Part shown: piece after piece, positions 4,720 to 21,336 of the stretch | How the letters are laid out: each line of letters begins with the position of its first letter | How positions within the stretch are numbered: position 1 is the first letter of the stretch | NCBI GenBank assembly: GCA_017437095.1 | Contig: JAFSBW010000011.1 | Span: 1 to 48,314 of the forward strand | From: Oscillospiraceae bacterium | GTDB taxonomy: Bacteria > Bacillota > Clostridia > Oscillospirales > Oscillospiraceae | Direction of reading: 5' to 3' | Length of the DNA stretch: 48,314 bases | Program-made: the position numbers and the translations under genes | Notes under the pieces: model-generated | Database searches by the model: none | What the model was told of the DNA's origin: nothing | The model's input: only the letters and a program-made list of their open reading frames with translations

Positions 4720-5827
4720 CCCCGGCATCCTCCGTCAACTCGTCGTACTCAGCAGAGTAAGAGCTGTAGTCGCCAAACATACCGGAATACTCGCTCTTGT
4801 GCATGATGTGGATATCCTCGGGGTTCAGCCGGATGCCGATGGTGCTGCCTACGGCGCAATGGTCGGTAGACTGAATGAGCCACTTGAAGCCCCGGAACTC
4901 TACGATGATATCGTAGTTGAGGCCCTTGAAGGTAATGGCAGTAACCGTACCTACCAGATGGCCCTCGGAAGCGGGGACAATGTCGATATCCTCCGGGCGG
5001 ATGACCACATCCACAGGCTCGTTGCGCTCAAAGCCCTTATCCACGCACTGGAAGGTGCGGCCGAAGAAGCGCACCTTGTAGTCTTCCAGCATGACGCCGT
5101 CGAGAATGTTACTCTCGCCGATAAAGTCTGCCACGAAGGCGTTTTTGGGCTCGTTATATATATCCTCAGGCTTGCCGATCTGCTGGATGCGGCCCTTGTC
5201 CATAACTACCACGGTATCTGACATGGAGAGCGCTTCCTCCTGGTCGTGGGTAACATAGACGAAGGTAATGCCCAATGCCTGCTGGATGCGCTTAAGCTCG
5301 TTCTGCATATCCTTGCGCAGGCGCAGGTCCAGAGCGCCGAGAGGCTCGTCCAGAAGCAGCACCTTGGGGCGGTTTACCAGAGCCCGGGCAATGGCCACGC
5401 GCTGCTGCTGGCCGCCGGAGAGGGCATCGATACGCCGGTTTTCATAGCCACGCAGGCCAACGATGCCCAGCATCTCATGCACCCGCTCGTTGATCTCCGC
5501 CTTGGGGACCTTTGCTACCCGCAGGCCGAAAGCGATGTTGTCAAAAACATCCAGGTGCGGGAACAGAGCATAGCGCTGGAAAACGGTATTGACCTGGCGC
5601 TTATAGGGCGGCACATCGCCGATCTCCTGGCCGTCAAAAAGCACTTCGCCGCTGGTGGCCTTCAAAAAGCCGCCGATCAGGCGAAGAGTAGTGGTCTTAC
5701 CGCAGCCGGAAGGGCCCAGCAGGGTTAAAAATTCATGGTCGTTGATATAAAGATTGATACTGTCGAGAATGCGTTCTCCGTCGAACTCCATGACCAGATC
5801 ACGAAGCCGAATGAGTTCTTTGGACAT
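4706..5827 (-). CDS. potA: Spermidine/putrescine ABC transporter ATPase PotA
   Basis: Cytoplasmic ATPase that drives the PotB/PotCD importer, 373 residues. Walker A is GPSGCGKTT (38-46), the Q-loop glutamine is at 84, the ABC signature LSGGQQQR at 136-143, and Walker B ends LLLDEP (157-162). The C-terminal third matches a TOBE regulatory domain, and the protein ends in an acidic tail. The start at 5827 is set by GGGGGAGG five bases upstream; the frame extends 11 codons further but without a ribosome site. It is first in the pot operon. Confidence 0.95.
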
Positions 5828-5917: not shown

Positions 5918-6004
5918 ATTATTTTTTGCCTCTCCGGCTGCCGCCATATTACCGGCGGCGGACGAATGATTTTGCTGGGCGAATGATCCGCTTGCAAATG
6001 GGCA

Positions 6005-6051
6005 AAAGGCCGCAAAAGAGCCGCTGCGGCCTTTTCGGCGCAGCGGCTCTT
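6005..6051 (-). terminator. Terminator region with two mutually exclusive hairpins, end of the RiPP-like operon
   Basis: A perfect 13-bp stem pairs 6016-6028 (AAGAGCCGCTGCG) with 6039-6051 around a 10-base loop. An overlapping perfect 10-bp stem pairs 6005-6014 (AAAAGGCCGC) with 6026-6035. Both cannot form together. On the minus strand the first is followed by TTGCGGCCTTTT. It ends the transcript that contains the PqqD-like gene. Confidence 0.7.
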
Positions 6052-6070
6052 ACTTTAAGGGAGACTTGCG

Positions 6071-6337
6071 TTACTTTTCCAGCAGCCCGGCCTTTTCTAC
6101 TACGGCCAAAAACTGCTCCATATCCTCCCGGGCGGTGGCTTCGTCTACCTCAAATTCCTGGCAGATAGCCTGGCAGATCTGCTCCGGGGTGGTATCCTGG
6201 CGCAGCTTTTCCAAAATCAGCGCCCCCACCGCATTGGTGGTGACCATGCCGGAAAACTCCAGGGCAGCCACGCCCATAGGCACCAGGATATACTCCCCGG
6301 CGATCTGCCGCACATTAAACTCAAATTTTAATCTCAT
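6071..6337 (-). CDS. PqqD-like protein (probable RiPP recognition element)
   Basis: An 88-residue protein of the PqqD-like family. The family trait is a small winged-helix-like domain that binds the leader of a ribosomal peptide and presents it to the modifying enzyme. Visible features are the beta-rich N-terminus with GEYILVPMG, a central stretch N-A-V-G-A-L-I-L-E-L-like (residues 35-45), and the C-terminal helix ending VVEKAGLLEK, all typical of PqqD-like proteins in Firmicutes. AAGGAG is six bases before the ATG. It is last in the cluster with the peptide gene, kinase-like and radical SAM genes. Leader binding is inferred from family and context. Confidence 0.8.
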   Translation of the reverse strand: MRLKFEFNVRQIAGEYILVPMGVAALEFSGMVTTNAVGALILEKLRQDTTPEQICQAICQEFEVDEATAREDMEQFLAVVEKAGLLEK

Positions 6338-6347
6338 AGCTAGCTCC

Positions 6348-6965
6348 TTAGTGGATGGTTAATGTAGGAAGCATGGTCTGGTCAATATAGATTTGCAAAT
6401 CCACCTCGTTCAGCTCGGTCATACCAGACAGGTCCACAGAGCCAATTTCAATGGCATCAAAGGTGGCATAGCCTAAATCTTGCGTGCTCAGGTCTACTGT
6501 TCCTGCCTGAGTTCGCTCTTCTTCCAAGGGAAGGCATTGATAGAGGTATTGGACGCCGTTTTCCTCAACGCTCAAATAAACGCCCAAACTATCGGCTTTA
6601 TTTGCCATATCCGTTTCCGATGCCACATAGATATGCATCTGGTTTGCCTCCATATGGAGCATGTAGCCGCCGTTATATGCCGCAGCGGCAAGCCACTGCT
6701 CATAGCTGCCTTGTGCCTGATCCTGGATCTCCACGGTAGGGATATTGTCCCCATCCAAGGTTTCTTGGTGTACAGTGGTTTCTCCCGGGGTGGTATTCAT
6801 CGGAAAATCTGAGGAATTAGGAGTGGTTTGCTTTTGCTGGGCACTAGCATGGGGATTTCCCCCATCCTTATTCGAACCGGTGCCCAGAACAATGGCTGCC
6901 ACCACCAGCGCCACAAACACAACCGCCAGCAACGCCAGCAAAACAATCTTATTCTGCTTTTTCAC
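6348..6965 (-). CDS. Membrane-anchored extracytoplasmic protein of unknown function in the RiPP-like cluster
   Basis: A 205-residue protein whose family I do not recognise. One hydrophobic segment (about residues 7-28) after MKKQNK serves as signal anchor; no lipobox cysteine is seen. A Ser/Thr/Gln-rich linker (about 31-70) leads to an outer domain (about 80-205), predicted mainly beta, ending PTLTIH. The start is GTG with GGAGGT eight bases upstream. It overlaps the radical SAM gene by 17 bases, which argues for a role in the same system, for example immunity, presentation or export of the peptide product. That role is a guess from position only. Confidence 0.8.
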   Translation of the reverse strand: MKKQNKIVLLALLAVVFVALVVAAIVLGTGSNKDGGNPHASAQQKQTTPNSSDFPMNTTPGETTVHQETLDGDNIPTVEIQDQAQGSYEQWLAAAAYNGGYMLHMEANQMHIYVASETDMANKADSLGVYLSVEENGVQYLYQCLPLEEERTQAGTVDLSTQDLGYATFDAIEIGSVDLSGMTELNEVDLQIYIDQTMLPTLTIH

Positions 6966-8067
6966 ACTTAATTACCTCCAATTCCTTTCTCATCATATCC
7001 TGAGCGCACTGGGCCATAGCGCAAAGATAGGGCGCCTTTTGGTCAGGAGTCCCGGTTTCGGTGTAAATCATAGCCACGCAAGGCTTGCAAAGCTTTCTGC
7101 GTGGACAGTTTTTACAGCCGGAGAGTACCGGAGTTGTTCGCACAACATCGGTGAGCTTATTCCAGCAATCCGCAAAGGGCTCCAGGAAGGGATAAAGCTG
7201 CAGAGGGAATGGCATAATGCCACAGGCGGTCATGGTTCCATCCCAGCTTATCCAAAAACTGCTTCTGCCTGCCCGGCATTGCATATAATCCTCACGATGA
7301 TTTCCCCAATCGTTTCCCTCTTGAACTTTTTCCTCAGCGACCTGGCTGGAGAGCCAGCGCACATAGTCCTGGGAATGCTGCAAAAACTTGGCCTTGTGCA
7401 CAAACATAGCAGCAGCCTCCTCCGGGGTAAACCGAGAGTCTGTTTTCTCAGTTTCCCGCCTGGAGGGCGGGAACATATAGGTTGCCATGCGGACATTCAG
7501 CCCCAAATCCTTGCCGAATTGTAAAATAGCCTCCTGATCCCCGGCATTTTCCGGAATCATACTGGCGTTGATCACTACAGGGATTCCGGCTTCTTTTAAT
7601 CCACGGATGGCGGCTACCGCCCGGTGATAGCCGGAGGCGCTACCGCAAATTCTTTCATAAGTCTGCTCGCTGCCGCCGTAAAGCGTAATGTTTACCCGAT
7701 GGGGTGCATATTCTTTCAGCCAGGCAATGGTAGCTTCATCAATCAGCGTTCCATTGGTATTGATGGAAAGCAAAAATCCCATTTTATGTAGCTGGATATA
7801 CAGCTCCCGGAAATGAGGGTACAAAAAGGGCTCGCCGCCAGTAAGCAGCAGAAATAGCGTGCCGGCCTTATGGCATTGCTCTGCAAGAGAGACCCACTCC
7901 TGCCAATCCAGCTGGCGCTTTCCCTCTGCACGGATTTGCGCCGGTGTTTTGCGAACATAGCACATTTTGCAGGCGAAATTGCACACCGGGGAAAGCTCAA
8001 AGGCGCCTCCCAGGGGGATGCGCTGATGGGATGCCTTTGCATATAGGTAATCACTGTATTTTTCCAC
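6949..8067 (-). CDS. Radical SAM/SPASM peptide-modifying enzyme
   Basis: A 372-residue enzyme. The radical SAM cluster motif CxxxCxxC is C29, C33, C36 and GGEP at 77-80 helps bind S-adenosylmethionine. A SPASM domain follows with C264, G276, C282, then C318-x2-C321-x5-C327-x2-C330 and C349, enough ligands for two auxiliary iron-sulfur clusters. Family members with SPASM domains usually modify ribosomal peptides (thioether or C-C bonds) or mature enzymes. The start is GTG, with GGAGG nine bases upstream, and overlaps the kinase-like gene by 17 bases. The likely substrate is the Cys-containing peptide at 9054-9302 (inference from neighbourhood). The bond formed cannot be read from the sequence. 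Confidence 0.9.
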   Translation of the reverse strand: MEKYSDYLYAKASHQRIPLGGAFELSPVCNFACKMCYVRKTPAQIRAEGKRQLDWQEWVSLAEQCHKAGTLFLLLTGGEPFLYPHFRELYIQLHKMGFLLSINTNGTLIDEATIAWLKEYAPHRVNITLYGGSEQTYERICGSASGYHRAVAAIRGLKEAGIPVVINASMIPENAGDQEAILQFGKDLGLNVRMATYMFPPSRRETEKTDSRFTPEEAAAMFVHKAKFLQHSQDYVRWLSSQVAEEKVQEGNDWGNHREDYMQCRAGRSSFWISWDGTMTACGIMPFPLQLYPFLEPFADCWNKLTDVVRTTPVLSGCKNCPRRKLCKPCVAMIYTETGTPDQKAPYLCAMAQCAQDMMRKELEVIKCEKAE

Positions 8068-8923
8068 AGTCTGTGTCCTCCAAATATTGCCGCAGCTTTG
8101 CTACAGCGTCTGAATCCGGACGGCAGCAAAACTCCAGCACAGGAACCTGGCAAGCAATATCCTGCGCCAAGGAAAAGGCCAAATCTATATCCTTATCCTG
8201 CCAGCGGTGCAGCGCGAAGCCTGCCACCAAATTGCGGGAAATTTGCCCTTGGGTTAATGGTTGTATTACATTATCCTGCCCCTGCCGGAGAATTACAATC
8301 GCCCGGATCGGCAGGTGAATATTCTTGCAAATGTTGGAAGAACCGCAGTTCGGGTAACCGTAGGCATACCAACGCCCCTGGTCTTTGCCGAGGAGTACAC
8401 GGTCTCCGTTGATAATATCAGCTCCGGCATATTGCTGCCAGAGGCTCGCCTGGGTAGATTTTCCCGTTTGGGAAGGCGCCGCAAATAAAATTGCCTGATT
8501 CTGCCAACCTACATAAGATGCATGGAGAATAGGTCGGTTTTGATGCAGCAGTGCCTTTTGCAGGCCGGAAATGCCAAAAAACCAATCCGCATCCATAGGC
8601 GGCTGGTTAAAAATCTCCGGGTCAAAGCTGCAAACATGACCCCTATCCCGCTCCGCCCATACGGCATATGCATTTTTTAAGTATGCCCAATGGTAAACAA
8701 TCAGCGGCTCTCCATTCACATCGTAAATATCATGAAATTCGCCGCTTCCAAGCTTTGGATATGCTGTATAGAGAGCCAAAGGCTCAATATGGGCCTGCAG
8801 CAAAAGGGTCTGTCCCTTCCATGGCCCCGTATATCGAAAACGCTCCATAAAAATGCCGGGCTTAAAGGGATAGCCTGCGGTATCAAACTGAACCAAGAGG
8901 CCACCTAGCATATAGGCTTCCAT
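8051..8923 (-). CDS. HPr kinase-like protein associated with RiPP clusters
   Basis: A 290-residue protein related to the C-terminal kinase domain of HprK. Walker A-like APSQTGKST is at residues 149-157, H134 stands in ILHAS before it, D174 in NGDRV after it, and the loop GYPNCGSS plus the strand LPIRAIVILRQ (about 189-214) are characteristic of the HprK-like proteins found in peptide clusters. Some relatives (e.g. the lasso-peptide kinases PadeK and ThcoK) phosphorylate the C-terminal serine of the precursor. The peptide encoded just upstream here ends in Ser-Ser. The start at 8923 is set by GGAGG; the frame extends further but without a ribosome site. True HPr phosphorylation is unlikely, since the usual N-terminal domain is absent. 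Confidence 0.8.
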   Translation of the reverse strand: MEAYMLGGLLVQFDTAGYPFKPGIFMERFRYTGPWKGQTLLLQAHIEPLALYTAYPKLGSGEFHDIYDVNGEPLIVYHWAYLKNAYAVWAERDRGHVCSFDPEIFNQPPMDADWFFGISGLQKALLHQNRPILHASYVGWQNQAILFAAPSQTGKSTQASLWQQYAGADIINGDRVLLGKDQGRWYAYGYPNCGSSNICKNIHLPIRAIVILRQGQDNVIQPLTQGQISRNLVAGFALHRWQDKDIDLAFSLAQDIACQVPVLEFCCRPDSDAVAKLRQYLEDTDCGKIQ

Positions 8924-9007
8924 ATACAGCTTCCTCCTTTGCGGAAATGAGTTTCGGCGCCGGCCTGCCGAGGGCAAACAGACGCCGAATAGAACCATTG
9001 GTAGGAG

Positions 9008-9033
9008 ATAACGGGGGCCGAAGCCCCCGTTAT
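9008..9033 (-). other. Perfect hairpin with UUCG loop between peptide gene and enzyme genes
   Basis: ATAACGGGGGC and GCCCCCGTTAT form an 11-bp perfect stem; read on the minus strand the loop is UUCG. No T-run follows, so it is more likely an mRNA 3'-end stabiliser or partial attenuator than a full terminator. It lies 20 bases after the peptide stop and about 85 bases before the kinase-like start. Confidence 0.8.
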
Positions 9034-9053
9034 ATTAGTTTGGCAGGTAACAA

Positions 9054-9302
9054 TCAGGATGACAGGAAAAGGCCAGCCAAATCGTCTATGGGCCCATGGT
9101 AGCAGAGCTTGTCGTCCACATTGTTCTCATCGGTAACGTTGGTGTCACACTGGGAGCTAAAGAAGCCGTAAACTTCATCTACACAAGAATGCTGATAGTG
9201 GTTAATCGACTCGCCGCCGCCATCGGTACAGCTGCCTGCAAGAGCAGCATCCAGCTGGAAGGATTCTACTGCAAGATAAGGCTTGATATATTCTCTTTTC
9301 AT
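9054..9302 (-). CDS. Small Cys-containing peptide, candidate RiPP precursor
   Basis: An 82-residue acidic peptide starting at ATG 9302 with AAGGAGGG eight bases upstream. The N-terminus MKREYIKPYLAVESFQL contains Y5-x-x-P8-x-L10, the core of the motif by which lasso-peptide leaders bind their RRE protein. An Ala-Leu-Ala-Gly stretch (19-23) just before C25 looks like a leader/core border. The rest holds C25, C40, C52 and C67 at 15-, 12- and 15-residue spacing, H35, H38 and H69, many Asp/Asn, and ends LFLSS. It sits 13 bases after the giant surface-protein gene and directly before the kinase-like, radical SAM and PqqD-like genes. The precursor role is inferred; no family name is known to me. 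Confidence 0.75.
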   Translation of the reverse strand: MKREYIKPYLAVESFQLDAALAGSCTDGGGESINHYQHSCVDEVYGFFSSQCDTNVTDENNVDDKLCYHGPIDDLAGLFLSS

Positions 9303-9315
9303 TGCTATTCCCTCC

Positions 9316-12300
9316 TTAATTCTGAGTACTGGCGCTAACCAGACCGTTCTTAACAGCGTAACCATCTACAGTTCCGGTAAAGGTAAAATCTACAGCGCCA
9401 TTTTCCACATACCACCAATTGCTGCCATAAGTGGCAAAGCCAGTAAATGCGGTATCCTGAACGCCATTGGCAATGTAGATCCAGCTTCCGTCGGAATCTC
9501 TAACCAGGCCGGTATAGGTGCTGGCCCAGATGCCGTAGCGTACATAGTGGGCAATGCCGTTATCTTCAACCACGCCGGTGAAGTTGAAGTTGACAGGGCC
9601 ACTTTCTACATAGGCCTTCATGCCGTTAACCTCTACCAGACCCACAAAGCCGGCGGTAACCTTACCCTTGCTGAAGTTCAGCCACTGGTCGTCAACCTTC
9701 TTCAGGCCGTTGACAGCAGTGTTAACGCAGCCGCCGCGGATGTAGTAGGAATCGCCATTAAATTCTATCACACCGTTGCAGGTAAAGTCAACCTTTCCGT
9801 CAACAACATACCAGGTGCCGGTGGAGTTGGCAACCAGACCGGTGAAGCCTTCCTCGGCAACACCGTTTACATAGTAGTAATAGTTGCCGTCCTCACCCTT
9901 CTGCAGGGAAACCGCAGCAGGATCGTTGGCGCTGATAATGCTGATAGCCAGCTTTGCAGCTCTATTGTCCACCATGAAACTAAAGGATTCCACCTGAACA
10001 GTATCGGCGTTAGCGCCGTAAGCCAGCTTGATATCGGTAACGGACAGGATACCGGTGCCGGTGTTGGTAACCACGACATAAGCGAAGTAGCCGGTCTTGC
10101 CGTCTACGGTAGCCAGAGTAAAGTAGTTGCTCAGGTCCTTGCCGTCTACCAGATCGTAGTACATATCAGTGCCGGTGGCAACGGTCTTGGTCAGGGTTGC
10201 GCCAGATGCTGCAGGATTGGCGCTGTAGGGAACTACATAAGCCTGCAACTTAACCTCGGTGCCATTTACAGACTTGGCGCCGATATCAAAGCTGGCGGGC
10301 ATTTCGGCAGAGTATACCAGGAATGCTACGCCGTTGTTCTGCTTCAGGTATACTTCGTTGTTGGGGCCAACCGCCTTGTAATCAGATACATTGGTGATGT
10401 TTGCGGGGGTTTCGGGAGCGATATTACCCTCGTAATCGCCATACTGATTGTTGGGGGTAGACTCAACGTATACGGTGCCGTTGGTAATTCCGTCTTCGCC
10501 CATACCCTTGAAGGTATCGGAAGTGATCAGAAGGTTGCGGATTTCGGTAATGACTGCATTTAGCTCATTGTCAGCTGCGTAAGCAGCGTCTGCAATGGTC
10601 TTGTTCGCGCCACCGTCCATAGTACCGTAGATGCGTACCGCATCGAAGTAGAACTGGCCGCCGTTGGACAGAGCCGCCGGGGTAGTTCTGCTCTGGTAAA
10701 CATCAATGATAACGGTGTAGGTGCCCCAGGTCAGCCCATCGATGGATACAACAGGAATCTGATACAGCTCGTTCGCACCCTTATTCAAGACAATCTGGGT
10801 TTTAACCTTGGTTTGTCCCTGCATAACAGTTACGCGAATCATGCCCTGCTGTGCGCCGGTGCGGCTGATGATATCAAAACCGGTGCCGGTGAAGGTGAAG
10901 CTGGCGGTGGTCACGCCTACGCCCTCACCCAGGACATACTGGCTGCTGCCAGCGGAGAAGAACTTGTCATTGGCGTAGGAGCTGTCGTAGCCGTACAGGT
11001 CAGGATCGTTGCCGCCGTCGGCCTGGGTGTTATTCAGGGTGTAACCGTCTTCCGAAATCAAAGTCCACTTATTATTAGTACCACTGGTCAGAACGAAGGA
11101 GCCGCCGGTGTTGCCTGCGGTTTCGTAGTGAACCACATGGGCGGGAATGACTGTGAGCGGCTTGTACATGTAGTACACCCAGTCCTTGTTGATCTCACCC
11201 TTTCTGTAGGTGCCGTCACCATTATCAATAGCCTCGTATTCCTGGAAAGCGATGGCTACGAACACCTGATCCACGCCATTCATAATACCGTTGGGAGTGA
11301 ATTTTACCTGAGTATTACCATTAGCGCTGATGATGGAGTAATTACCGTTGGCAGTAGCGAAGGTATTGGTGAAGGAACCGGCCTTCACATAGTCCTTCAG
11401 ATCAAAGCTGCTGGAGTAGGTGGCGAAGCCCACAACCTCCATAGTGTACCAGTACTTGGTGCCATCCTGGTCGGGGTTGCGCACATCAGCATAGCCCCGA
11501 ACATAGGGCATTTCTTCACTGGAGAACATGTTGATTTCCACGGCCTTGCCATAATCGATCACAACAGTCTCGCCAGCCATAGGCCGGAGGGACTCACCCA
11601 AGTCGGTCATGATAACAGGGATATCGATGACGACGCTGGAGTGGAATCCATTGGAAGAATCCACATAGGTCAGCAGGTTTTCGATATTGTTCAGGTCGTC
11701 GTTCTTGACCCATGCAACGCTGCCCTGGCCAGCGGTAGTGGAGTTGGTTACGGTTGCGCTGGCGGTCACATCGTACAGGGCGTTGTTACCTGCCAGACCT
11801 GCCTGGATTAGCGCATCCAGAGCGGTGAAGGTGACATGGTTATTCAGCTCAGCCTCATAGTAGGCGCGGCCATCCAGGAAGATACGGTTAGCGGGGTTGG
11901 TGAAGGGCACGCCCGCGCGGTTGACATACTGGCCTTGCGCGTTGACCAGGAAGAACCGAACGGTAACGTTACCTGCGCCCCAAGCGATCTGGGGAACGCC
12001 ATAGTAGCGCTTAACATACTTGCCGTAAACATCGATGTACTCGACATAAGCATATTCGTTGGTGGCGTATACGCCGGCAACAGCCTCTCTGGGGTTATCC
12101 AGGGAGCCATCCAGGTAGGCGTAGTACTCCATGGCCACTTCCTTATCGGTGATAGTACCGATCTTCCAGACGATCTGCTCGTCCTTGGCGTGAACGGTTG
12201 CCACGCCCTCGTGCATCACGGTATCAAGAGTAGCGGTGTAGGTGAAGGTCTCGGCATCGATGACCCGCTCGCCCTTGGCGTTGACGGTCATAATGTTGAC

Positions 12301-15300
12301 ACTCTCGCCCTTCAGGCTGGAGAAAGCCTGTGTGCCGTCTGCAGAGAAGGTAATCTGCTCCAGAATTTCGGGAGCTTCATTGACACGCAGACCCAGATGC
12401 TCATCCTTGACGGTAACGGTCTGGATAGAGCCGTCATTCATGATCACGGACATGCTCTTGTTCAGATCGGAGGCGGTTACCAGCGTGTAGGAATTGACGG
12501 TGATGGGGAAGCTCATGGCCTGCATAGCCGCCAGAGTTTCCGCGCTCATGATACCGCCGGAGGTGATATCAGAGGAGTACATGCTGGTGCCGGTAAACAG
12601 GGAGAAATCGCCGCCGATGGTATCGGTGACCTGGGCGTTGGTGCCGGCGTAAGCCAGCGCACGGGCCAGGGTGGTCAGGTAATCATTCAGTTCCTGCTCG
12701 TTGTCCGCCAGGGTTACGGGAAGCGCGGTGTTCTTGACAAGACCTGCCAGAACACGCTCCATCTCATTCAGCTCATAGCTGTAGGTACTGAAGCCGCCGT
12801 GGGCCATATCGAAGCCGACAACATAGGCGCTGTCCACCTGGCTTCTCAGCTCGGTGGCAAGCAGGTTGTAGTTCTCGATGTATTCCAGCCAGCTGGATTC
12901 GCTGACGCTGTCGGGCTTGGAATACTTATCGGAGCCGCTCCACAGGGTATCGGCGCTGCCGTTGGCATTCTGGCTGTTATAGTGAGAGGGAGCACCGTCG
13001 GTCATGAAGACCACATGGATCTGACGGCCGGATTCGTCGTAGCTCTTGCCGTTGTTGTTGGCAGCATACTTGGCCTTCAGCTGGGCAATCGCGTCAATGG
13101 CTTCGCCGAAGGCAAAGTCGTAGTTGGTGTTGCCGCGGTTGGAGCCGGAGACGGAGGCCTCGCCGTAGTCATCATCATCGTAGCCGCCGATGGTCAGCGT
13201 ATATTCACCGGCTTCCTCGCTGCCGTCCAGATAACGGACATTGGTAAACTTGGTATCGGCAAAGACCTGAGACGCGATGGAATAGTCGCTGATGCCCACC
13301 ATGGGAGTTCTTACGGAGTCCACATGGTCGCTGGAGCCGCCGTGGTCACGGTCGGCACCGGCGAAGGTGACGAAGGTAAGGGTGTTGTCGCCGCCGTCCA
13401 CATTCAGCAGGATATCGGCGAAGTGATCCGCAGTCTGCATAGCCATATCCAGCTTATCGGTGCCGCTGGCGCCGCCTGCGGGACCCTTGTTAAAGTCGTT
13501 GGCATTGGCCAGTTCGTCCTCGGTCATGCCTTCGAACCAGTCGATGGACCAGCCCATGGAGTTAGACACGTCAACGATCAGAACTACGTCAACGGAGGAC
13601 TTGGTGGAAACGCCCGCTGCGGTCAGCTCGATCTTGGTAACGCCGGTGGCGGTGAAGTCCAGCACGCCTTCCGCGGTCTTGTTCATACGCACAGAGCCCG
13701 CATCGGGATAGCCGGGGATGACATCTGCTTCTTCCAGGCCTGCGAAGGGATCCTCAACCACATGGATGGTCAGGGTGTAGGTATCGCCTGCGTAGGCTAC
13801 GGGAACATAGTAGGTGCCGGGTACCGTGTTGTCGAAGCGATCCATGGCAGTGCCGTCATCGGCAACACCGGTGGCATCCGCCAGCTTGAAGTTCAGCTGG
13901 TCGAAGGGAACGGCTTCGCCAAAGCTGGGATCTGCGCCCTCATAGGTCATCTTAATGGCAACCTTGGTGAGGTTGGGCATGGAGCCGACACCGATCTCCA
14001 GGTAGGCGGGATCCAGCATGGGTACACGATCAGAGCCAACAACTGTGACATCCACAGTCTTGGTGATGTAGGGAACGTTATGGGTGGTACAGACAACCGC
14101 CATGCCGTAAACATCATACAATGTTGCGTAGATGGTGGCAGTGCCGGGCTTCAGACCGGTGACCACACCGTTCTGGTCTACGACAGCAACGGAGGGGTTG
14201 CTGGAGGACCAAACGATGGTATAGTCGTCTGCATCAACAGGTTCTTCTGTGTTTTCATTGAAAATCACAGTGGGAACAATGGCTTCCGCCACAAAGCCTG
14301 CGGGGATGTTCAGGGTAGTGGGATCCAGAGAGTAGTCGATGCCATAGTCATCGGTAAACTCCACATGCTTGTTGTACATGTATACGGATTCAGCCTCGGT
14401 GGTAGCGGTCCAGACGCCGTCCACATAGCCCAGGTAATAGGGGGCGTTATTGTCGCCGAAGCCAAGAACGATGCGGTATTCGCCATCGGGTACGGAAACG
14501 GCTTCCAGATAGACATGGTCAGCATTGGCGTGGATGAGCTGGGTCTCAGAGTCGCCGCTGCCCAGATAACGGCTCAGGTTGGAGGCGTTGAGCTGGGTGC
14601 GAACCACGCCGTCGGGGCAGGTGACATTGGTAACGAAGGTATCCAGCAGCCAGGCAGCCTGCTGTTCGTCGGATTCGCTGATGGTCAGGTAATCCACGGC
14701 ATCGCCGCCAAACAGATTGCCGGAGCCGATCTTGGAGGCCAGGACACCGTTTGCCAGAGTTACGGCGGCACCGCTGGCACCGGTGGAGCCGGTGGAGGTG
14801 GCGCTGGGGTTCTTCAGAGCGATCTCGCCGTTACCCGCAACGATGATATACTCTTCGTTCTCGTTGATGCCATCGTTATCCAGCACATAGTGGATGCCGT
14901 CTTCCAGGGTGATAACGCCATCATAATTGGAAGGATCAAAGTCCTCGACATGGATCCAGATGGTATCCAGGAACAGCACGTTGTCGGTGGAGTCCTTATA
15001 GGTGACCAGAGCGGTCTGGATACCGGGTTTGCTGGGATCCACCTTGGAGAGGTCAATGGTCAGATTGGGATTGTTCCACTTAATTCCTTCGATGGAATCG
15101 CCGGTGTTGAAATAGATGTTCAGCTCCAGATCTGCCAGGGCGGCTTGGATGTTGCTGTAGTCATCGCTGGTATTGGTAACCTTTGCAACATAGTCGTAGG
15201 AGTTCAGAGTGGCGTTGGTTACTTCCTTCTTCGTTACGGTAACCACCGTGGAATCGAAGTAGGGAGGCTGGGTGGTGGTGCCGTCGCCATCGTAAACGGT

Positions 15301-18300
15301 GTGACCGTTTACGGTCTTGATGTAGGTGTAGATGGTAACAGTACCTGCGCCCTGGGCGGTGACATTGCCGTATTCATCCACAGTAGCAATGTTGTCATCG
15401 CCAGACTTATAGCCCAGGGTGAAGTTACCGCTGCTGACGGCGATACCGCCGGCAATCACAGTGGCGGAGATGGCAGCGGAATCGCTGCCGCTCTCGCCAA
15501 AGATCAGGGCCATTTCCTCGGTGGCATTGACGGAAGGACCGGCAACGGTCACAGGAACGGTGGCGGTATACTCGGTGCCATCACTCATGGTCACCTTGGC
15601 GGTGACGGAGGTGGTGCCGGGCTTCCAGCCGGTGATCACGCCGCTGCTGTTGATAGTAGCAACGCTGCTGTCCAGCACAGACCACTCGATGGTATAGCCA
15701 CTGGTGATTGTCTCGTTATTGTGCTTTACGGTGTACTGCAGCTCATGGGTGGGGTTCAGAACACCGGAGCTGCCGGCAATGTACAGAGTGCCGGGGGCAG
15801 TGACCTGGATGCCGTCGGTAACAGCGGAGGCGTATTCCATATAGAATACAAAGCTGGAGCCGCTGTTCTTCTGCAGCAGGTATTCGCCTCCCTTTGCCAG
15901 GTCGATCTCCAGAACACCGTCACTGGGAACGGTATAGCTGGTTTTCTTGCCGTCAGGATCGGTCAGATAGACGCTGTGGCCTGGAGAATCCTCGGTATCA
16001 AATACCAGGGTGAAGGTACCCGCATTGGGGGCGGTGAAGGTGACCTTGGTGGAAGATTCCATCTTCATCGCTCTGTCGAAGTCCAGATCGCCATAGCTTC
16101 CGCTATAGGAGTTGGTGTAATTGGCGGAGATGTTGTACCACTTATCCGCGTCGGTGTCGCCGTCCACGGAGAAGTTATGCTTCCACAGATCGCTGGTGGT
16201 GGTGCCGGAAGAAGCAGCTGCAACCTCTACGGTCACATTTGCGGAAACGGTCTTGCCGTTTTCGGTGTAACTGACGGGCACGGTGTAGGTGCCGGCGATT
16301 GCGGTGTTGATGCCGCTGACATTGTAGGTCAGGCTGCTGCTCTGGACGGTCTTCTTGGAGCCGTCAGACATGGTGACTTCCATGGTCACGCCGGACAGGT
16401 CAACGGTGCCGGAGTTGGCGACATTGACGGTGCTGGGGCTGACGGTGGCGCTGGAGGGCGTAACAACTGTTTCACCAGATTCAGAGCCGCTCCACTTATA
16501 CAGGTAGATGGTCTGCACACCGTCAGAGGAACCGGCGCGGGTAAACTTTTCGCCATCATAGTACAGATAGCGGCCGCTGTTTTCCAGATTGATACCGTAA
16601 GCACCGGTAGCTGCATCGATAACAGTTACCTTGCTGTTCTTATCGCTGCTGTTACCCTTGGAGGGTGCACTGTCGCTACGCAGATATCTATCATCATCTT
16701 TGTTATCCGGTGTGCCCTTAATATTGTAGATATGGGTCTCGTCGAAGATCCAGATAAGGTTGGCAGCCTCTGCATAGCTGATATTTACCTTGCTGTTGAC
16801 AACGGTAACCTCAACAGGGGCGCTGTCGCCGTTCTGCAGAGCATAGTACTTATCGCCGTTTTTGGCAACAATGATGTACTCGCCATCATTCATATCCACA
16901 TTGCCGCTGGTATCCAGAACGAAGCCGGAACCGGTAGGTACATCGGGATCATCGGGATCCGGATCGGGGGTGGTGCCGCCGGAGGTGGGGGTGAGTAGCT
17001 GCATAGTTTTTCCATCGCTTTCGCTACTCTTGAAGTTCAGCGCGCCGCTATCAACCTTCAGCCACATGTTGTTATCGCCCTTGACGATGCCGTTAGCCAG
17101 ATCTACGGTAAACACAGTAGCATCGGATTTGCTGGTAGCGGCAAGCTTACCATCATCATTCAGATACACCTTGTTGCCATTGACGATGCTGTAGAAGTAA
17201 CCGGTGTTGGTGCCGGTAGCTTCCCAGGTGAACAGGGTGAAGCCGGTGGAGGATTCGATGGTATAGGTGTTCTCCTTGCCGCTGACCGCGGTGCGGGTAA
17301 TGGTGCCGGTCGCCCAGGCAGAGCCAGTCCAGTATGCTGCTCTACCCGTATCATTGTTGTTACTGAACAGGTACTGATTGCCGTTCACCATTGCGTCGGC
17401 GATCACATACTCGTTGCCAACAGGGGCAGGAGTCGTAGGCTCCTGGTAATTGGGATCGGCCGCGCCGCAGTTGGAGCAGGTGCCGTTCACATAGTTGTGG
17501 CCGGTAGCGGGGATACTCTCGGTCTTTTTGTGGGAGGAGTCGTTGGCGCAGGTGTAGGTGCGCACGCCGGTGCTCTCACAGCCGGGCTGGGTGGTCACAA
17601 CGCCGCTGCCCCAGCTATGGCCGGTGGCGGCGATGGTCTCGGTGTAGCTATCGCCGCAGGAGCAGGTGAAGGTGCGAACACCGGTAGTCTCACAGCCGGG
17701 CTCAGTAGTTACGGAGGCGGTGTAGCTGTGCTCATGAGGCTCATCGGAGCCGGCATTGACCGGCGCATATAGGTTCAGGCTCTGGGCGCTGCTTTCGAAC
17801 TTGGGACCGTTGGATCCGTCAATGTTCAGGTAAATACGGTTATCCGCATTGCCATGAGTGCCAGAAGCAACCCTGACATCTGCTTGCTCACCACTGAAGG
17901 TGATAGTCCACTGAGTAGCAGGGGTAGTGGCACAAACAAGGTTATTGGTGCCATTGCCGTTCAGATAGTACTTTGTGGTGCCATCCATGTAGTAGATGTA
18001 GTAGTTGCTGCTGTTGTCGATCTTTTCGATCACCCAGATATGGGCAGCAGCACCGTACTTCCAGCCGCCTTCAACGGAAGTCCAGGCAGCTTCCTGTACA
18101 CCGGGGTCGGTGCCGTGGGTAGCCGTTCTTTGGCTGCTGTTTCTTCCGATGACAACATAGGTGTACTTGTCGGAAAGGGCAGTCAGTCTGGTGTAGACCG
18201 TGTCGGCATTCACAGAGGGTACAGAAATATCGCCGGAGGGAGGCGTGGTGGGCTCATCAGCTTCCACTACGGTGAAGGTAGTGGTCTTGGTAACGGTGCC

Positions 18301-21300
18301 CTTATTAAAGGCGCCGTCGCCGTCTACCTTGGCCAGAGTGGCGGTAACGGTATAGGTACCGGCAGCGGTGGTGGTGATGGCGCCGGTAGATGCATTGATG
18401 GAAGCGCCGGAGCCGCTGATGGCATAGGTGAAGGTATAGCTATGGTTGCCGGAAGCATCGCTGGCAGCTGCGGTGGCAGTGGCCTGGGCGGTATCGCCTA
18501 CGGTAACGCTGTTAGGGAGAACAGAAAGGCCGGTAAGGGAATAGGTAACCTTTTCCTCTACAGCTTCGCCATTGACCACTACGGGAATAGTAGCAGTGAT
18601 GGAGCCGAAATCGGCGGAATCATAGCTCTTGCCGTCGTAAGTAATGGCAACAACGGTGGCGGTGATGGTGGTGGAGCCTGCGCCAACAAAGCTCACCAGG
18701 CCATCCTCAGTAACGGTAGCAATAGAGGAGGAGCCGCCGCTGTACTTAACGGTATAGCCGATGCCGCCCAGGTTGCCTACGGTAAAGGCGGAAACATTGA
18801 GCTGCTTGTTGGCATCGCCTACATTGGCTACAACCGCACCGGGAGTAACAGCAAAGTCTACATCGTAGTTGGTGATGCCAGATGCGCTGTCATAAAGCAC
18901 AACAGGAATGGTGCCGATATCTTTGCCGTCGTACTTGACAACAAAGCTGTATGTACCGGCGGTATTGGCGTTATAGCCGGAGGGAGCTGTAACCGTTACC
19001 AAAGAGTTGCTCATGGCAACAGTTTCCGTATCGGTGCCATCGGCATTGTCAGCTACCAGAACGCTGAAAGCAGTGCTGGCCTTGATGGCGCTGGAAATGG
19101 TATCGGCAGAGGTTCCAAGGGCATAAACCAGGCCCTCGCTACCGGTCAGCTTGGCATAGACGGCGGGGGTGGCGTCAGAAGAAAGCTTTTGATACACGCA
19201 AATCTTCTTGCTGCTGGTATTAGGCCTCATGCCGTTGCTGTCAATTTCCATGTATAAGGTTGTGTTGTTCACAGTAGTTTGAACAACTGTACTATTGGCA
19301 CTTCCAGAGAAGGTAAATACGGAAGCATCGTTCTCAGAAGTAACCAGTTCCTTATCGCCAGAATCCGTTCCTGTAAACTTTACATAATAATTAGTTCCGT
19401 TGATAATCGTATAGATTCTGCCTTGCCCATCAACCAGCCAATGGCAAGGATCCGTTTTTCCAGAAACGGTGGCAAGCGGATATACCTTCTGTCCATCAAC
19501 GGTACTATATGTGCTCGTATTAACCTGTGTTCCTACAAGGCTTGTACCACTAACCGTAGCTGTGCCCTGAGTGGACGAATCACCAGTCTTTGCAAGAACA
19601 TATTGGTTTCCAGTCGTAGGAATTGCAACTCTGTGATATCCAGTTGCAGTGCTGCCTGTGCTGGCATCCTTAACCTTTACAAAACTACCGGCAGTAAAGG
19701 AAGGATTGGAAGGAACAGTAGACGTTCCAGTCTGGACAGGCAGAGTGCCCTCGCCGGTGGCGGGGGTGTTGGCATCGACCACATTGACCTGGAAGGTATC
19801 GATGGCGATATCGCCGTTGTATACGGTGACGGTAGCCTTGCCGTTGCTGGCAGGGCCCACTTCATAGTTCATCTGGTTGGCAACGCCGTTGGCGATGCTG
19901 CCCTGATTGCCCACCAGGGTAACCTTGATGTTGGAGGTATCCACGCTGCCGCCTGCAACGATGGTCATTTCGGGCGCACTAACTACACCGATGACGAACC
20001 GCTCGCCACCGTAGGTAGTGCCGTTAAGCTTTGCCGCAGCTTCTTCTGCCACGGAAGCAGCCATCAGAACGCCACCGGAACCCTTGGCTTCGTCATCGAC
20101 ATAGGCGTATTTACAGTAGCCGGACTGTTCGGTTTCAACGCCGGACTGCTTATAGATATCCTTCAGCTTATTATTGCTCAACTTGTTAGCAGCAATACCG
20201 TTGAACGCCTTCAGACCGGCTTCACCGTATGCAGAACCAACCCAACCCTCGACATAGGCCTTCATCATGGCGTAGGCCATCAGACCGGAGCCGGAAGTCT
20301 CCAGCCGGTTATAGTTATCTTTGTTATCACCGCTGGTGACTACCTTTTCAGTAGTATTAACAATGTTATACCATAGGCCGGTATTGCTGTCCTGATACTG
20401 CATCATACCATCAAACAGCTTGGGCAGCTTGCCGATCAGATTGGTCTTATACTGACCATCGGGCATCATGTCGATACACATAACAAGACCCGCTGCGTAC
20501 CAACCAATACCACGGCTCCAGAATACGCCGTTGCCCTTGTTGCCGGAGACATTCCAGCCGTGGTGATACAGCTTGGTATTGGAATCGTACATGGTGTCTG
20601 CAACCCACATCAGCCGGTTGTATACTTCCTCATAAATCTCGGAGGCAGAAGCATCGGCGTTGGTAATCTTGCCGGATTCCAGGGCATTGGCATACTTCAT
20701 CAGGAAGGGCTGGGCCATGTAAATGCCGTCCAGACCGATGTTCCAAGTATCCCAACCGCTTTCCTTATGCTTGAAGTTACCGCCGCAATTAGAATAGGAA
20801 GTCTGATTCATGATCTCGTTGTAAACGAAATGAATGGCCTCCTCATAATCCGCACGATGCGCAGCATCCACACCAGCGCTGTCCAGAATGGTCAACAGGC
20901 TCAGCGCAGGTGGAACGGAGTCCAGCTCGCCACCGTGCCATTTAGTGATGTCTCCATCATCATCAATATTGAAGTCCATAAAGACCTGGGCAAATTCCAG
21001 AGCGTTACCCTTAGAATTGGTAACATCGTTATCTGAATTAACACCCAGCATGAGCATAGCATCCATCATAACGCCGGTATAGTAGCGCCAGTTGTCGCCC
21101 TTACCGGTTTCAGTGGTCCAGCTCAACTCGCTGTTGGTGCCTGCATTCGCATAGCTTTCTGCCAACAAGCTGGCTGCATATTCGCGAACTTCTTCCACAC
21201 TGGCCGCGGTAGTAGCAACCGTGGAATCGGCAGCAGACACGCTGAAAATACCAGCAGGCAGCAGGCCGATGACCATGACCAGGGCGAGCAGCAGAGACAG

Positions 21301-21336
21301 CGCTCTGTTGCCCAGGCTTACTCTTCTTTCATTCAT
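9316..21336 (-). CDS. Giant secreted multidomain surface protein with GH105-like, Ig-like, VWA and wall-binding-type repeats
   Basis: A 4006-residue exported protein. A signal peptide (1 to about 34, ending VSA-AD) precedes a GH105/GH88-like domain (about 45-450) with GWDTWNIGLDGIYMA near 192 (the Asp of LDGIY matches the family catalytic Asp) and FWSRGIGWY near 272. About five beta-trefoil-like modules follow (roughly 549-729, 1045-1189, 1305-1449, 1482-1615, 2152-2315), alternating with bacterial Ig-like domains (e.g. 812-925, 1619-1705, 1852-1935, 2339-2429). Cys-rich repeats lie at 1197-1299. A VWA domain (about 2582-2882) has the MIDAS sequence DVSNS and a later MTDGAPS. Stalk-like and carbohydrate-binding-like domains follow, then about ten 20-residue wall-binding-type repeats (about 3815-3999). 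There is no LPXTG. The start at 21336 is chosen for GGGGAGG; the frame extends 19 codons further. Likely role: adhesion to, and trimming of, pectin-type glycans. Confidence 0.9.
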   Translation of the reverse strand: MNERRVSLGNRALSLLLALVMVIGLLPAGIFSVSAADSTVATTAASVEEVREYAASLLAESYANAGTNSELSWTTETGKGDNWRYYTGVMMDAMLMLGVNSDNDVTNSKGNALEFAQVFMDFNIDDDGDITKWHGGELDSVPPALSLLTILDSAGVDAAHRADYEEAIHFVYNEIMNQTSYSNCGGNFKHKESGWDTWNIGLDGIYMAQPFLMKYANALESGKITNADASASEIYEEVYNRLMWVADTMYDSNTKLYHHGWNVSGNKGNGVFWSRGIGWYAAGLVMCIDMMPDGQYKTNLIGKLPKLFDGMMQYQDSNTGLWYNIVNTTEKVVTSGDNKDNYNRLETSGSGLMAYAMMKAYVEGWVGSAYGEAGLKAFNGIAANKLSNNKLKDIYKQSGVETEQSGYCKYAYVDDEAKGSGGVLMAASVAEEAAAKLNGTTYGGERFVIGVVSAPEMTIVAGGSVDTSNIKVTLVGNQGSIANGVANQMNYEVGPASNGKATVTVYNGDIAIDTFQVNVVDANTPATGEGTLPVQTGTSTVPSNPSFTAGSFVKVKDASTGSTATGYHRVAIPTTGNQYVLAKTGDSSTQGTATVSGTSLVGTQVNTSTYSTVDGQKVYPLATVSGKTDPCHWLVDGQGRIYTIINGTNYYVKFTGTDSGDKELVTSENDASVFTFSGSANSTVVQTTVNNTTLYMEIDSNGMRPNTSSKKICVYQKLSSDATPAVYAKLTGSEGLVYALGTSADTISSAIKASTAFSVLVADNADGTDTETVAMSNSLVTVTAPSGYNANTAGTYSFVVKYDGKDIGTIPVVLYDSASGITNYDVDFAVTPGAVVANVGDANKQLNVSAFTVGNLGGIGYTVKYSGGSSSIATVTEDGLVSFVGAGSTTITATVVAITYDGKSYDSADFGSITATIPVVVNGEAVEEKVTYSLTGLSVLPNSVTVGDTAQATATAAASDASGNHSYTFTYAISGSGASINASTGAITTTAAGTYTVTATLAKVDGDGAFNKGTVTKTTTFTVVEADEPTTPPSGDISVPSVNADTVYTRLTALSDKYTYVVIGRNSSQRTATHGTDPGVQEAAWTSVEGGWKYGAAAHIWVIEKIDNSSNYYIYYMDGTTKYYLNGNGTNNLVCATTPATQWTITFSGEQADVRVASGTHGNADNRIYLNIDGSNGPKFESSAQSLNLYAPVNAGSDEPHEHSYTASVTTEPGCETTGVRTFTCSCGDSYTETIAATGHSWGSGVVTTQPGCESTGVRTYTCANDSSHKKTESIPATGHNYVNGTCSNCGAADPNYQEPTTPAPVGNEYVIADAMVNGNQYLFSNNNDTGRAAYWTGSAWATGTITRTAVSGKENTYTIESSTGFTLFTWEATGTNTGYFYSIVNGNKVYLNDDGKLAATSKSDATVFTVDLANGIVKGDNNMWLKVDSGALNFKSSESDGKTMQLLTPTSGGTTPDPDPDDPDVPTGSGFVLDTSGNVDMNDGEYIIVAKNGDKYYALQNGDSAPVEVTVVNSKVNISYAEAANLIWIFDETHIYNIKGTPDNKDDDRYLRSDSAPSKGNSSDKNSKVTVIDAATGAYGINLENSGRYLYYDGEKFTRAGSSDGVQTIYLYKWSGSESGETVVTPSSATVSPSTVNVANSGTVDLSGVTMEVTMSDGSKKTVQSSSLTYNVSGINTAIAGTYTVPVSYTENGKTVSANVTVEVAAASSGTTTSDLWKHNFSVDGDTDADKWYNISANYTNSYSGSYGDLDFDRAMKMESSTKVTFTAPNAGTFTLVFDTEDSPGHSVYLTDPDGKKTSYTVPSDGVLEIDLAKGGEYLLQKNSGSSFVFYMEYASAVTDGIQVTAPGTLYIAGSSGVLNPTHELQYTVKHNNETITSGYTIEWSVLDSSVATINSSGVITGWKPGTTSVTAKVTMSDGTEYTATVPVTVAGPSVNATEEMALIFGESGSDSAAISATVIAGGIAVSSGNFTLGYKSGDDNIATVDEYGNVTAQGAGTVTIYTYIKTVNGHTVYDGDGTTTQPPYFDSTVVTVTKKEVTNATLNSYDYVAKVTNTSDDYSNIQAALADLELNIYFNTGDSIEGIKWNNPNLTIDLSKVDPSKPGIQTALVTYKDSTDNVLFLDTIWIHVEDFDPSNYDGVITLEDGIHYVLDNDGINENEEYIIVAGNGEIALKNPSATSTGSTGASGAAVTLANGVLASKIGSGNLFGGDAVDYLTISESDEQQAAWLLDTFVTNVTCPDGVVRTQLNASNLSRYLGSGDSETQLIHANADHVYLEAVSVPDGEYRIVLGFGDNNAPYYLGYVDGVWTATTEAESVYMYNKHVEFTDDYGIDYSLDPTTLNIPAGFVAEAIVPTVIFNENTEEPVDADDYTIVWSSSNPSVAVVDQNGVVTGLKPGTATIYATLYDVYGMAVVCTTHNVPYITKTVDVTVVGSDRVPMLDPAYLEIGVGSMPNLTKVAIKMTYEGADPSFGEAVPFDQLNFKLADATGVADDGTAMDRFDNTVPGTYYVPVAYAGDTYTLTIHVVEDPFAGLEEADVIPGYPDAGSVRMNKTAEGVLDFTATGVTKIELTAAGVSTKSSVDVVLIVDVSNSMGWSIDWFEGMTEDELANANDFNKGPAGGASGTDKLDMAMQTADHFADILLNVDGGDNTLTFVTFAGADRDHGGSSDHVDSVRTPMVGISDYSIASQVFADTKFTNVRYLDGSEEAGEYTLTIGGYDDDDYGEASVSGSNRGNTNYDFAFGEAIDAIAQLKAKYAANNNGKSYDESGRQIHVVFMTDGAPSHYNSQNANGSADTLWSGSDKYSKPDSVSESSWLEYIENYNLLATELRSQVDSAYVVGFDMAHGGFSTYSYELNEMERVLAGLVKNTALPVTLADNEQELNDYLTTLARALAYAGTNAQVTDTIGGDFSLFTGTSMYSSDITSGGIMSAETLAAMQAMSFPITVNSYTLVTASDLNKSMSVIMNDGSIQTVTVKDEHLGLRVNEAPEILEQITFSADGTQAFSSLKGESVNIMTVNAKGERVIDAETFTYTATLDTVMHEGVATVHAKDEQIVWKIGTITDKEVAMEYYAYLDGSLDNPREAVAGVYATNEYAYVEYIDVYGKYVKRYYGVPQIAWGAGNVTVRFFLVNAQGQYVNRAGVPFTNPANRIFLDGRAYYEAELNNHVTFTALDALIQAGLAGNNALYDVTASATVTNSTTAGQGSVAWVKNDDLNNIENLLTYVDSSNGFHSSVVIDIPVIMTDLGESLRPMAGETVVIDYGKAVEINMFSSEEMPYVRGYADVRNPDQDGTKYWYTMEVVGFATYSSSFDLKDYVKAGSFTNTFATANGNYSIISANGNTQVKFTPNGIMNGVDQVFVAIAFQEYEAIDNGDGTYRKGEINKDWVYYMYKPLTVIPAHVVHYETAGNTGGSFVLTSGTNNKWTLISEDGYTLNNTQADGGNDPDLYGYDSSYANDKFFSAGSSQYVLGEGVGVTTASFTFTGTGFDIISRTGAQQGMIRVTVMQGQTKVKTQIVLNKGANELYQIPVVSIDGLTWGTYTVIIDVYQSRTTPAALSNGGQFYFDAVRIYGTMDGGANKTIADAAYAADNELNAVITEIRNLLITSDTFKGMGEDGITNGTVYVESTPNNQYGDYEGNIAPETPANITNVSDYKAVGPNNEVYLKQNNGVAFLVYSAEMPASFDIGAKSVNGTEVKLQAYVVPYSANPAASGATLTKTVATGTDMYYDLVDGKDLSNYFTLATVDGKTGYFAYVVVTNTGTGILSVTDIKLAYGANADTVQVESFSFMVDNRAAKLAISIISANDPAAVSLQKGEDGNYYYYVNGVAEEGFTGLVANSTGTWYVVDGKVDFTCNGVIEFNGDSYYIRGGCVNTAVNGLKKVDDQWLNFSKGKVTAGFVGLVEVNGMKAYVESGPVNFNFTGVVEDNGIAHYVRYGIWASTYTGLVRDSDGSWIYIANGVQDTAFTGFATYGSNWWYVENGAVDFTFTGTVDGYAVKNGLVSASTQN

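Follow-up and report, generated by a model that had tools for sequence, protein, structure and literature searches.

A proposed RiPP-type maturation gene set whose precursor peptide is linked to giant X-module surface proteins in gut Clostridia

Main

The DNA analysed here is contig JAFSBW010000011.1 (48,314 nucleotides; hereafter the window) of an Oscillospiraceae bacterium (assembly GCA_017437095.1), which carries on its minus strand five tightly packed genes for a small peptide, an HprK-like protein, a radical S-adenosylmethionine (rSAM) enzyme with a SPASM domain, a membrane-anchored ‘outer’ protein and a PqqD-like protein. A first-pass annotation, made from the sequence alone, had taken these genes for a possible undescribed system for a ribosomally synthesized and post-translationally modified peptide (RiPP). 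Comparison with related genomes shows that precursor, HprK-like protein, rSAM/SPASM enzyme and PqqD-like RiPP precursor recognition element (RRE) recur together as a RiPP-like unit, and in addition ties the precursor to giant surface proteins that share an unannotated module, here called X. The earlier interpretation is thereby partly supported, being right in outline and incomplete: the giant X-module protein lies outside the coordinates it covered and was missed. The link between peptide and X is new and is the best-supported part of this analysis. On balance, and with moderate confidence, we read the set as a RiPP-type maturation cassette whose product, a small modified peptide, is dedicated to partnering giant surface proteins with module X.

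Results

The precursor peptide is associated with giant X-module proteins

The precursor gene of the window (82 amino acids; 9054..9302, minus strand) starts 13 nt past the stop codon of the gene directly upstream, which encodes a giant secreted surface protein of 4006 amino acids (9316..21336, minus strand) with a hydrophobic N-terminus, GH88, CBM77, Ig-like Big_2 repeats, module X and choline-binding-like repeats (Pfam matches PF07470, 2.8e-39; PF18283, 4.7e-10; PF02368, 8.7e-11; PF21540, 6.5e-17). A profile of the peptide found 63 places in 30 of the 136 genomes of the genus. Once fragments and copies had been removed and loci on named contigs added, the set comprised 65 peptides, namely that of the window, its homologues at loci L004–L007 and 60 further peptides, or 66 with one from another genus (L125). 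Rows with E > 1e-5 (the fragment L044, L115 and L117), one cut by a contig end (L107) and a copy of L083 (L109) were excluded, as were the duplicate contigs L041, L043 and L045 in favour of L006, L111 and L110; identical contigs were counted once (L006/L041/G008, L009/L124/G464 and probably L004/G148).

Of the 53 peptides for which 2.5 kb or more of upstream sequence is available, 28 have the stop codon of a giant no more than 60 nt upstream (with gaps of 10–19 nt in 24 of the 28), and all 28 of these directly upstream giants carry X. By way of control, of 427 further genes at these loci, 5 lie directly behind a frame of at least 800 amino acids. Within 6 kb on either strand, an X-giant accompanies 49 of the 65 peptides, and 29 of the 34 that have 6 kb on both sides. 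In another subgroup, with the order PqqD–peptide–kinase, the X-giant lies on the opposite strand; several ‘giants’ of this subgroup with few partners in the comparison were discarded as wrong-strand frames, the real X-giants being on the other strand.

All-against-all comparison of the giants yielded a single shared block of ~420 amino acids, present in 36 giants that each have 25 or more partners; in the window this block spans 9994..11385 on the minus strand and is common to giants at other peptide loci (alignment A4). A profile of this block, X, matched 50 frames in the fetched loci. The X modules of the window, L059, L100 and L006 have no Pfam match above cut-off (for the window X the sole hit is a sub-cut-off one to Mog1, at 0.027), and a PDB sequence search with the X profile gave nothing at E ≤ 1. 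Two other candidate links between the giants were rejected: a common C-terminal anchor, as the C-termini differ and LPXTG-like motifs occur in 3 of 46 (by regular expression), and a vWA domain, which the same kind of search placed in 3 of 46, an undercount because Pfam finds VWA in L076 too. On these sequence comparisons, the feature common to the giants at peptide loci is module X. Separately, four loci (L049, L050, L051 and L105) have a second large frame of 970–1576 amino acids after the rSAM gene, which in L049 is a GH2-type glycosidase.

Peptide and X also occur in the same genomes. With profile thresholds of E up to 1e-12 for X and up to 1e-3 for the peptide, X is found in 29 and the peptide in 30 of the 136 genomes of the genus: 28 hold both, one holds X only (G025, where X is at a contig end), two hold the peptide only (G103 and G148) and 105 hold neither (Fisher p = 1.4e-25, a value that the relatedness of the genomes makes optimistic). 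Among 391 genomes sampled evenly from the class, the three in which X was found are also the three in which the peptide was found, and the window's genome is among them. Across the 31 of 65 peptides for which all four parts are available, the partial distance correlation between peptide and X given both enzymes is 0.41 (p = 0.001), higher than that of the peptide with either enzyme; that between X and kinase is 0.02 and that between kinase and rSAM enzyme is 0.72. That peptide and X are rarely apart in the searched genomes suggests a joint function of peptide and surface protein.

Unmodified homologues of the peptide that stand without the enzymes had been named in the first-pass annotation as evidence that would speak against a RiPP-like system. 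Peptides without nearby enzymes do exist: of 45 peptides flanked by 4 kb on either side, 8 have no same-strand kinase, rSAM or PqqD gene within 4 kb. However, all five genomes concerned (G056, G129, G040, G150 and G130) hold a cassette, with kinase and rSAM genes, elsewhere, which fits modification in trans, and five of the eight orphans have a giant directly upstream.

These patterns bear on a different explanation, in which the product is an ordinary secreted RiPP (a bacteriocin or signal) merely co-transcribed with surface proteins, so that regulation is common and function is not. An rSAM enzyme together with a PqqD-like RRE is typical RiPP tailoring equipment, the closest relatives in the literature are natural products, and the rSAM profile has as its best solved match SkfB, a sactipeptide enzyme. 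Co-transcription of this kind nevertheless sits uneasily with a peptide that departs from X in three of 136 genomes and in none of 391, that co-varies with X beyond what the enzymes account for and that, when orphaned, mostly keeps its giant; nor was an exporter identified for it (immunity genes were not searched for). We regard a free, merely co-regulated product as unlikely.

Several observations nonetheless weigh against our reading of a modified peptide made as a partner of the X-giant, as do the kinase features described below. No giant lies directly upstream of 25 of the 53 peptides, and 5 of the 34 well-flanked peptides (L061, L063, L070, L091 and L108) have no X-giant within 6 kb. Peptide and X each co-vary with the enzymes as well, with partial correlations of 0.24 for peptide and rSAM (p = 0.001), 0.14 for peptide and kinase (p = 0.009) and 0.21 for X and rSAM (p = 0.001), and co-variation and linkage fall short of proving contact between peptide and X. 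At ten loci with genes of the kinase or rSAM family, several of them at contig ends, no precursor was recognised (L048, L053, L055, L056, L058, L112–L114, L116 and L118), and five genomes (G014, G049, G058, G112 and G165) score >350 bits for the rSAM family and match neither peptide nor X; in G014 and G049 the contigs end near that site, and a fragment of a peptide is seen in L044 (G014). Most genomes are incomplete metagenome-assembled genomes. Finally, no peptide exporter was identified by a C39 search of the 136 genomes or among neighbour clusters at 36 loci: an ABC-transporter cluster is present at 5 of the 36, and full-length C39 transporters, found in only 6 of 136 genomes, of which one is peptide-positive (G103), were discarded as a general exporter. 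Weaker C39 matches above cut-off, mostly in frames of 270–330 amino acids, are common, occurring in others of the 44 genomes with matches, the window's included.

The precursors share a lasso-type leader and a C-terminal serine

The window peptide has zero matches in Pfam and NCBIfam. Its N-terminus, earlier described as leader-like, carries the lasso-type motif Y5-x-x-P8-x-L10 (9273..9290, minus strand), and a leader of the form Y..P.[LIVMFA] is present in 64 of the 66 peptides. Invariant across the 24 rows of the first alignment (A1) are Y5, P8, C25, C67, Y68 and S82. The last of these, encoded at 9057..9059 (minus strand), is the C-terminal residue; 65 of the 66 peptides end in Ser, and the sole exception ends in Ser-Gly. 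The same holds for all 41 of the 41 peptide clusters at 50% identity, compared with 5.2% of 479 other genes at the same loci. Within the last 25 residues, 65 of the 66 peptides have a Cys followed by Tyr or Phe, and 52 of 66 contain four Cys, which is at most compatible with a Cys-to-carbon thioether; the cores are ~55 amino acids long (by eye). As in RiPP systems generally, a short precursor with a conserved leader adjoins tailoring enzymes and an RRE.

Divergent precursors beside the same kinase and rSAM families (L060, L068, L115 and L117) all end in Ser too. Three of them (L068, L115 and L117) are of another precursor type, with a W-x-x-P leader and a length of 135–146 amino acids. At a further locus (L085:8684-8968), X-giant, peptide, rSAM and PqqD genes are present with no kinase gene within 4 kb, and the peptide still ends in Ser.

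The HprK-like protein is a likely kinase with an altered aspartate pair

The HprK-like protein (290 amino acids; 8051..8923, minus strand; P-loop APSQTGKST) finds nothing in Pfam at E up to 1 and only weak matches in NCBIfam, to ScmC and HprK-related families. Compared with the PDB, however, the profile of its family (A3) matches HPr kinase/phosphorylase (1jb1/2qmh, E = 5e-4) with the His, P-loop and Asp aligned, and H134, the P-loop K155 and D174 are invariant in 29 rows. The catalytic set of lasso kinases (His, P-loop GKS and DD) is incomplete here, in that the His, the GK and the second Asp are kept, whereas 66 of 67 long kinases have Gly, Asn or Ser in place of the first Asp of the pair, giving NGD, CND, SND or SSD (NGD in the window).

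According to PMC10368454, catalysis by lasso kinases relies on the His, the P-loop and a pair of Asp, each of which is important in BsfK, and BsfK phosphorylates Ser3, not a C-terminal Ser; according to PMC8498205, lasso kinases with an intact DD modify the C-terminal Ser, and the rest of the peptide matters little. Because the first Asp is replaced here and both are important in BsfK, phosphotransfer could be altered or lost. The HprK-like protein might be a degenerate or different phosphotransferase and not a kinase, with the terminal Ser serving as a recognition element for another step. A comparison with shorter HprK-like proteins points the same way: at 20 such loci, which have PqqD and mostly no rSAM gene, five candidate peptides were picked by eye in four loci, and only one of the five ends in Ser. 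This one (L142) adjoins an NGD kinase, and the other three loci (L126, L129 and L138), with NDD and an intact pair, have peptides that do not end in Ser. The invariance of H134, K155 and D174, the retention of a terminal Ser in divergent precursors beside this kinase family and the action of DD-bearing lasso kinases on just that residue argue the other way, and we judge this alternative improbable, if not negligibly so. A kinase step on the C-terminal Ser appears likely on this analysis, and not settled, because 66 of 67 long kinases are without the first Asp and Ser3 is the site used by one lasso-type kinase that has been characterised. The phosphoserine guessed at in the first-pass annotation would thus be sharpened to a specific site.

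The shorter HprK-like proteins form a second family (L126–L143, L119 and L120, for example L126:6515-7225 and L138:4889-5605) that occurs in many genomes of the genus, carries NDDK in 17 of 20 members (by eye) and is accompanied by PqqD, mostly without rSAM. At four of its loci, frames of 39–68 amino acids carry a Y-x-x-P motif, and most of them lack a terminal Ser. This family may belong to another undescribed RiPP-like unit.

The rSAM enzyme, the RRE and an outer protein of the closest subgroup

The rSAM/SPASM enzyme (372 amino acids; 6949..8067, minus strand) has a clear match to PF04055 (4.8e-28) and a weak match to the Pfam SPASM domain (0.06). The best solved chain for its profile (A2) is SkfB (6efn, 2.8e-23), followed by cytosylglucuronate decarboxylase, 5v1q and PqqE. 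Across 25 rows of A2, C33, C36, C264, C282, C318, C321, C327, C330 and C349 are invariant and C29 is at least 90% conserved, so that both the CxxxCxxC motif and the SPASM cysteines are present, the latter with a Cx2Cx5Cx2C spacing. The usual SPASM spacing is Cx2Cx5Cx3C.

The PqqD-like protein (6071..6337, minus strand), similar to the lasso B1 RRE, matches PF05402 at 1.6e-16. Its best NCBIfam match is lasso_PqqD_Strm (2.7e-10), and its resemblance to lasso-type RREs is loose because this match, at 40 bits, is below the cut-off of 70.

The outer protein (205 amino acids; 6348..6965, minus strand; alignment A5, seven members) has an N-terminal transmembrane helix (by eye) and an extracellular domain. 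It had been counted as a member of the system; as its profile has eight matches including the window, confined to the closest subgroup and one weak match, it was rejected as a core part. At three other loci (L055, L056 and L058), kinase, rSAM and PqqD genes occupy one chromosomal site at which no precursor was recognised, and two of these (L055 and L056) have a transmembrane-anchored protein of another family (c4).

Relation to known RiPP systems

The set resembles lasso clusters with an HprK-like kinase in its YxxPxL-type leader, its separate PqqD-like RRE, its HprK-like kinase and its C-terminal Ser, and 7 of 36 loci have NTP_transf_5-type genes, another point of likeness. Kinase-bearing lasso systems include those of paeninodin (PadeK), ThcoK and SyanK, and pseudomycoidin (PsmK/PsmN). 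By contrast, an rSAM/SPASM enzyme is present here where lasso clusters have a B2 protease and a cyclase, the Cys-bearing core is longer, the kinase has NGD for DD, and the precursor goes with giant surface proteins. In lasso leaders, YxxPxL is the motif to which the B1 RRE binds (PMC10368454).

One could suppose a divergent lasso cluster whose protease and cyclase have been lost or are borrowed in trans, given the lasso-like leader, RRE and kinase and given that a lasso-type locus with a cyclase-like protein, kinase and PqqD does exist in the genus (L147). However, 13 of the 136 genomes exceed the cut-off for the B2 protease (PF13471), strongly in G010 and G025 only, and none of the 13 is peptide-positive; 10 peptide-positive genomes have sub-cut-off matches only, and G000 has none. 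No asparagine-synthetase-like cyclase is encoded by the five window genes or was recognised by eye in representatives of the neighbour clusters, no genome-wide search having been made. Given the B2 result and cores of ~55 residues, membership of a lasso cluster was rejected, and a divergent lasso origin is very improbable. In the locus L147 (4179-7258, in G010), a probable lasso-type cluster, a 641-amino-acid Asn_synthase-type protein, an HprK-like kinase and PqqD are present with B2 nearby and no recognised precursor; L148 is a second lasso-type locus with B2 and kinase. The kinases of both branch far from that of the window in a quick tree without support values.

In gene content the set also resembles the SynChlorMet cassette (ScmA–F), which combines HprK-like, PqqD-like and rSAM/SPASM proteins around a small precursor. 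Membership was rejected, since all members score far below the TIGR cut-offs (TIGR04249-04251 in NCBIfam): the kinase reaches 21 bits against 125, and the rSAM enzyme 70.5 (ScmE) and 61.8 (ScmF) against 400. Most of the loci listed also have one rSAM protein and not the two of SynChlorMet, from which we know of no X giant. Sactipeptide and ranthipeptide systems such as those of SkfB and RumMC likewise have an rSAM/SPASM enzyme that acts on a Cys-bearing precursor, and SkfB is the best solved match; the present set differs from them in its kinase and its surface-giant partner. Similar in logic is the small subunit of quinohemoprotein amine dehydrogenase, which is modified by the rSAM enzyme QhpD as a subunit of a larger exported protein, with no kinase known there.

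The first-pass view that the genes match no familiar RiPP class is supported: kinase, rSAM enzyme and PqqD-like protein reach the cut-off of no curated NCBIfam family, and no description of the set was found among the listed titles and starts of abstracts of open-licence literature on HprK, PqqD, rSAM and RiPPs, on surface proteins and adhesins, and on C-terminal serine. In one matching paper, a kinase is mentioned only for lasso clusters.

Organization and recurrence of the locus

The two 17-base overlaps reported earlier are present, at 8067/8051 between kinase and rSAM genes and at 6965/6949 between rSAM and outer genes. The accompanying claim of one shared terminator is incomplete, because a second strong hairpin lies inside the gene set. 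The first, after the PqqD gene (6016..6050, minus strand, ends approximate), is terminator-like with a tail of four T and was seen by folding statistics (z = −4.2 for 6000-6070), being absent from a consensus scan for terminators. The second is a GC-rich hairpin between peptide and kinase genes (9008..9033, minus strand; z = −4.4 for the whole gap) with no U run on this strand. A hairpin in the same place follows the peptide gene in L004, L005, L006 and L007 (intergenic z from −3.3 to −6.2), where the stems vary in sequence and keep their pairing (by eye, the window included). It may protect the giant–peptide message or reduce readthrough into the enzyme genes.

Searches with the rSAM protein returned eight loci and, in a set of 99 genomes of relatives, matches in 16, with as many as seven in one genome. 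The order peptide–HprK–rSAM–outer–PqqD is whole in L004, L005 and L006 (rSAM 60–63% identical), which bears out the recurrence that the first-pass annotation had proposed to check; two short contigs (L003 and L040) show as much of the five-gene set as they reach, and L007 has the first four genes and a second rSAM gene before the contig ends. In the wider family (rSAM ~28–44% identical), peptide, kinase, rSAM and PqqD genes are usually kept and the anchored protein is not. The named strain Hominisplanchenecus faecis CLA-AA-H246 has X-giant, peptide, kinase and rSAM genes together at a single locus (L009/L124), where PqqD was not seen. Chance packing of the genes was dismissed, as the set recurs in relatives. 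Elsewhere in the window (1859-5824, minus strand) lie ABC transporter genes for an ATPase, a permease and a 681-amino-acid permease fused to a solute-binding protein, of polyamine type by eye.

Discussion

The genes most likely encode a maturation system that combines lasso logic with a radical-SAM enzyme and yields a small partner of X-module giants. The genes, their conserved residues and neighbourhood, and the co-occurrence and co-variation of peptide and X are observed; chemistry, export and binding are inferred. In such a system, giant and peptide would be translated in tandem, and the hairpin behind the peptide gene would probably keep expression of the enzymes lower. To judge by motif and family, the PqqD-like RRE would bind the Y-x-x-P-x-hydrophobic leader as lasso B1 does, the HprK-like protein would phosphorylate the C-terminal Ser as do most studied lasso kinases, and the rSAM/SPASM enzyme would introduce a crosslink into the core, which bears Cys residues and ends in the C-Y motif. 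Linkage and co-variation suggest that the peptide reaches the surface and there binds or is joined to module X, and the orphan peptides that the enzymes of one cassette may also serve giant–peptide pairs elsewhere in the genome. A full version of this scheme, in which a radical-crosslinked, C-terminally phosphorylated peptide docks on or attaches covalently to X of giant adhesins and enzymes of gut Clostridia and one enzyme set serves several pairs in trans, is put forward more tentatively, as a possibility that we rate below even.

Whatever the chemistry, lasso-type features (leader, RRE, kinase and C-terminal Ser) are here combined with an rSAM enzyme, and module X offers a means of searching for further members. 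The products of RiPP pathways are generally taken to be free antibiotics or signals; because this precursor is tied to the giants by synteny, phylogenetic profile and co-variation, the product here may instead be a part of the cell surface.

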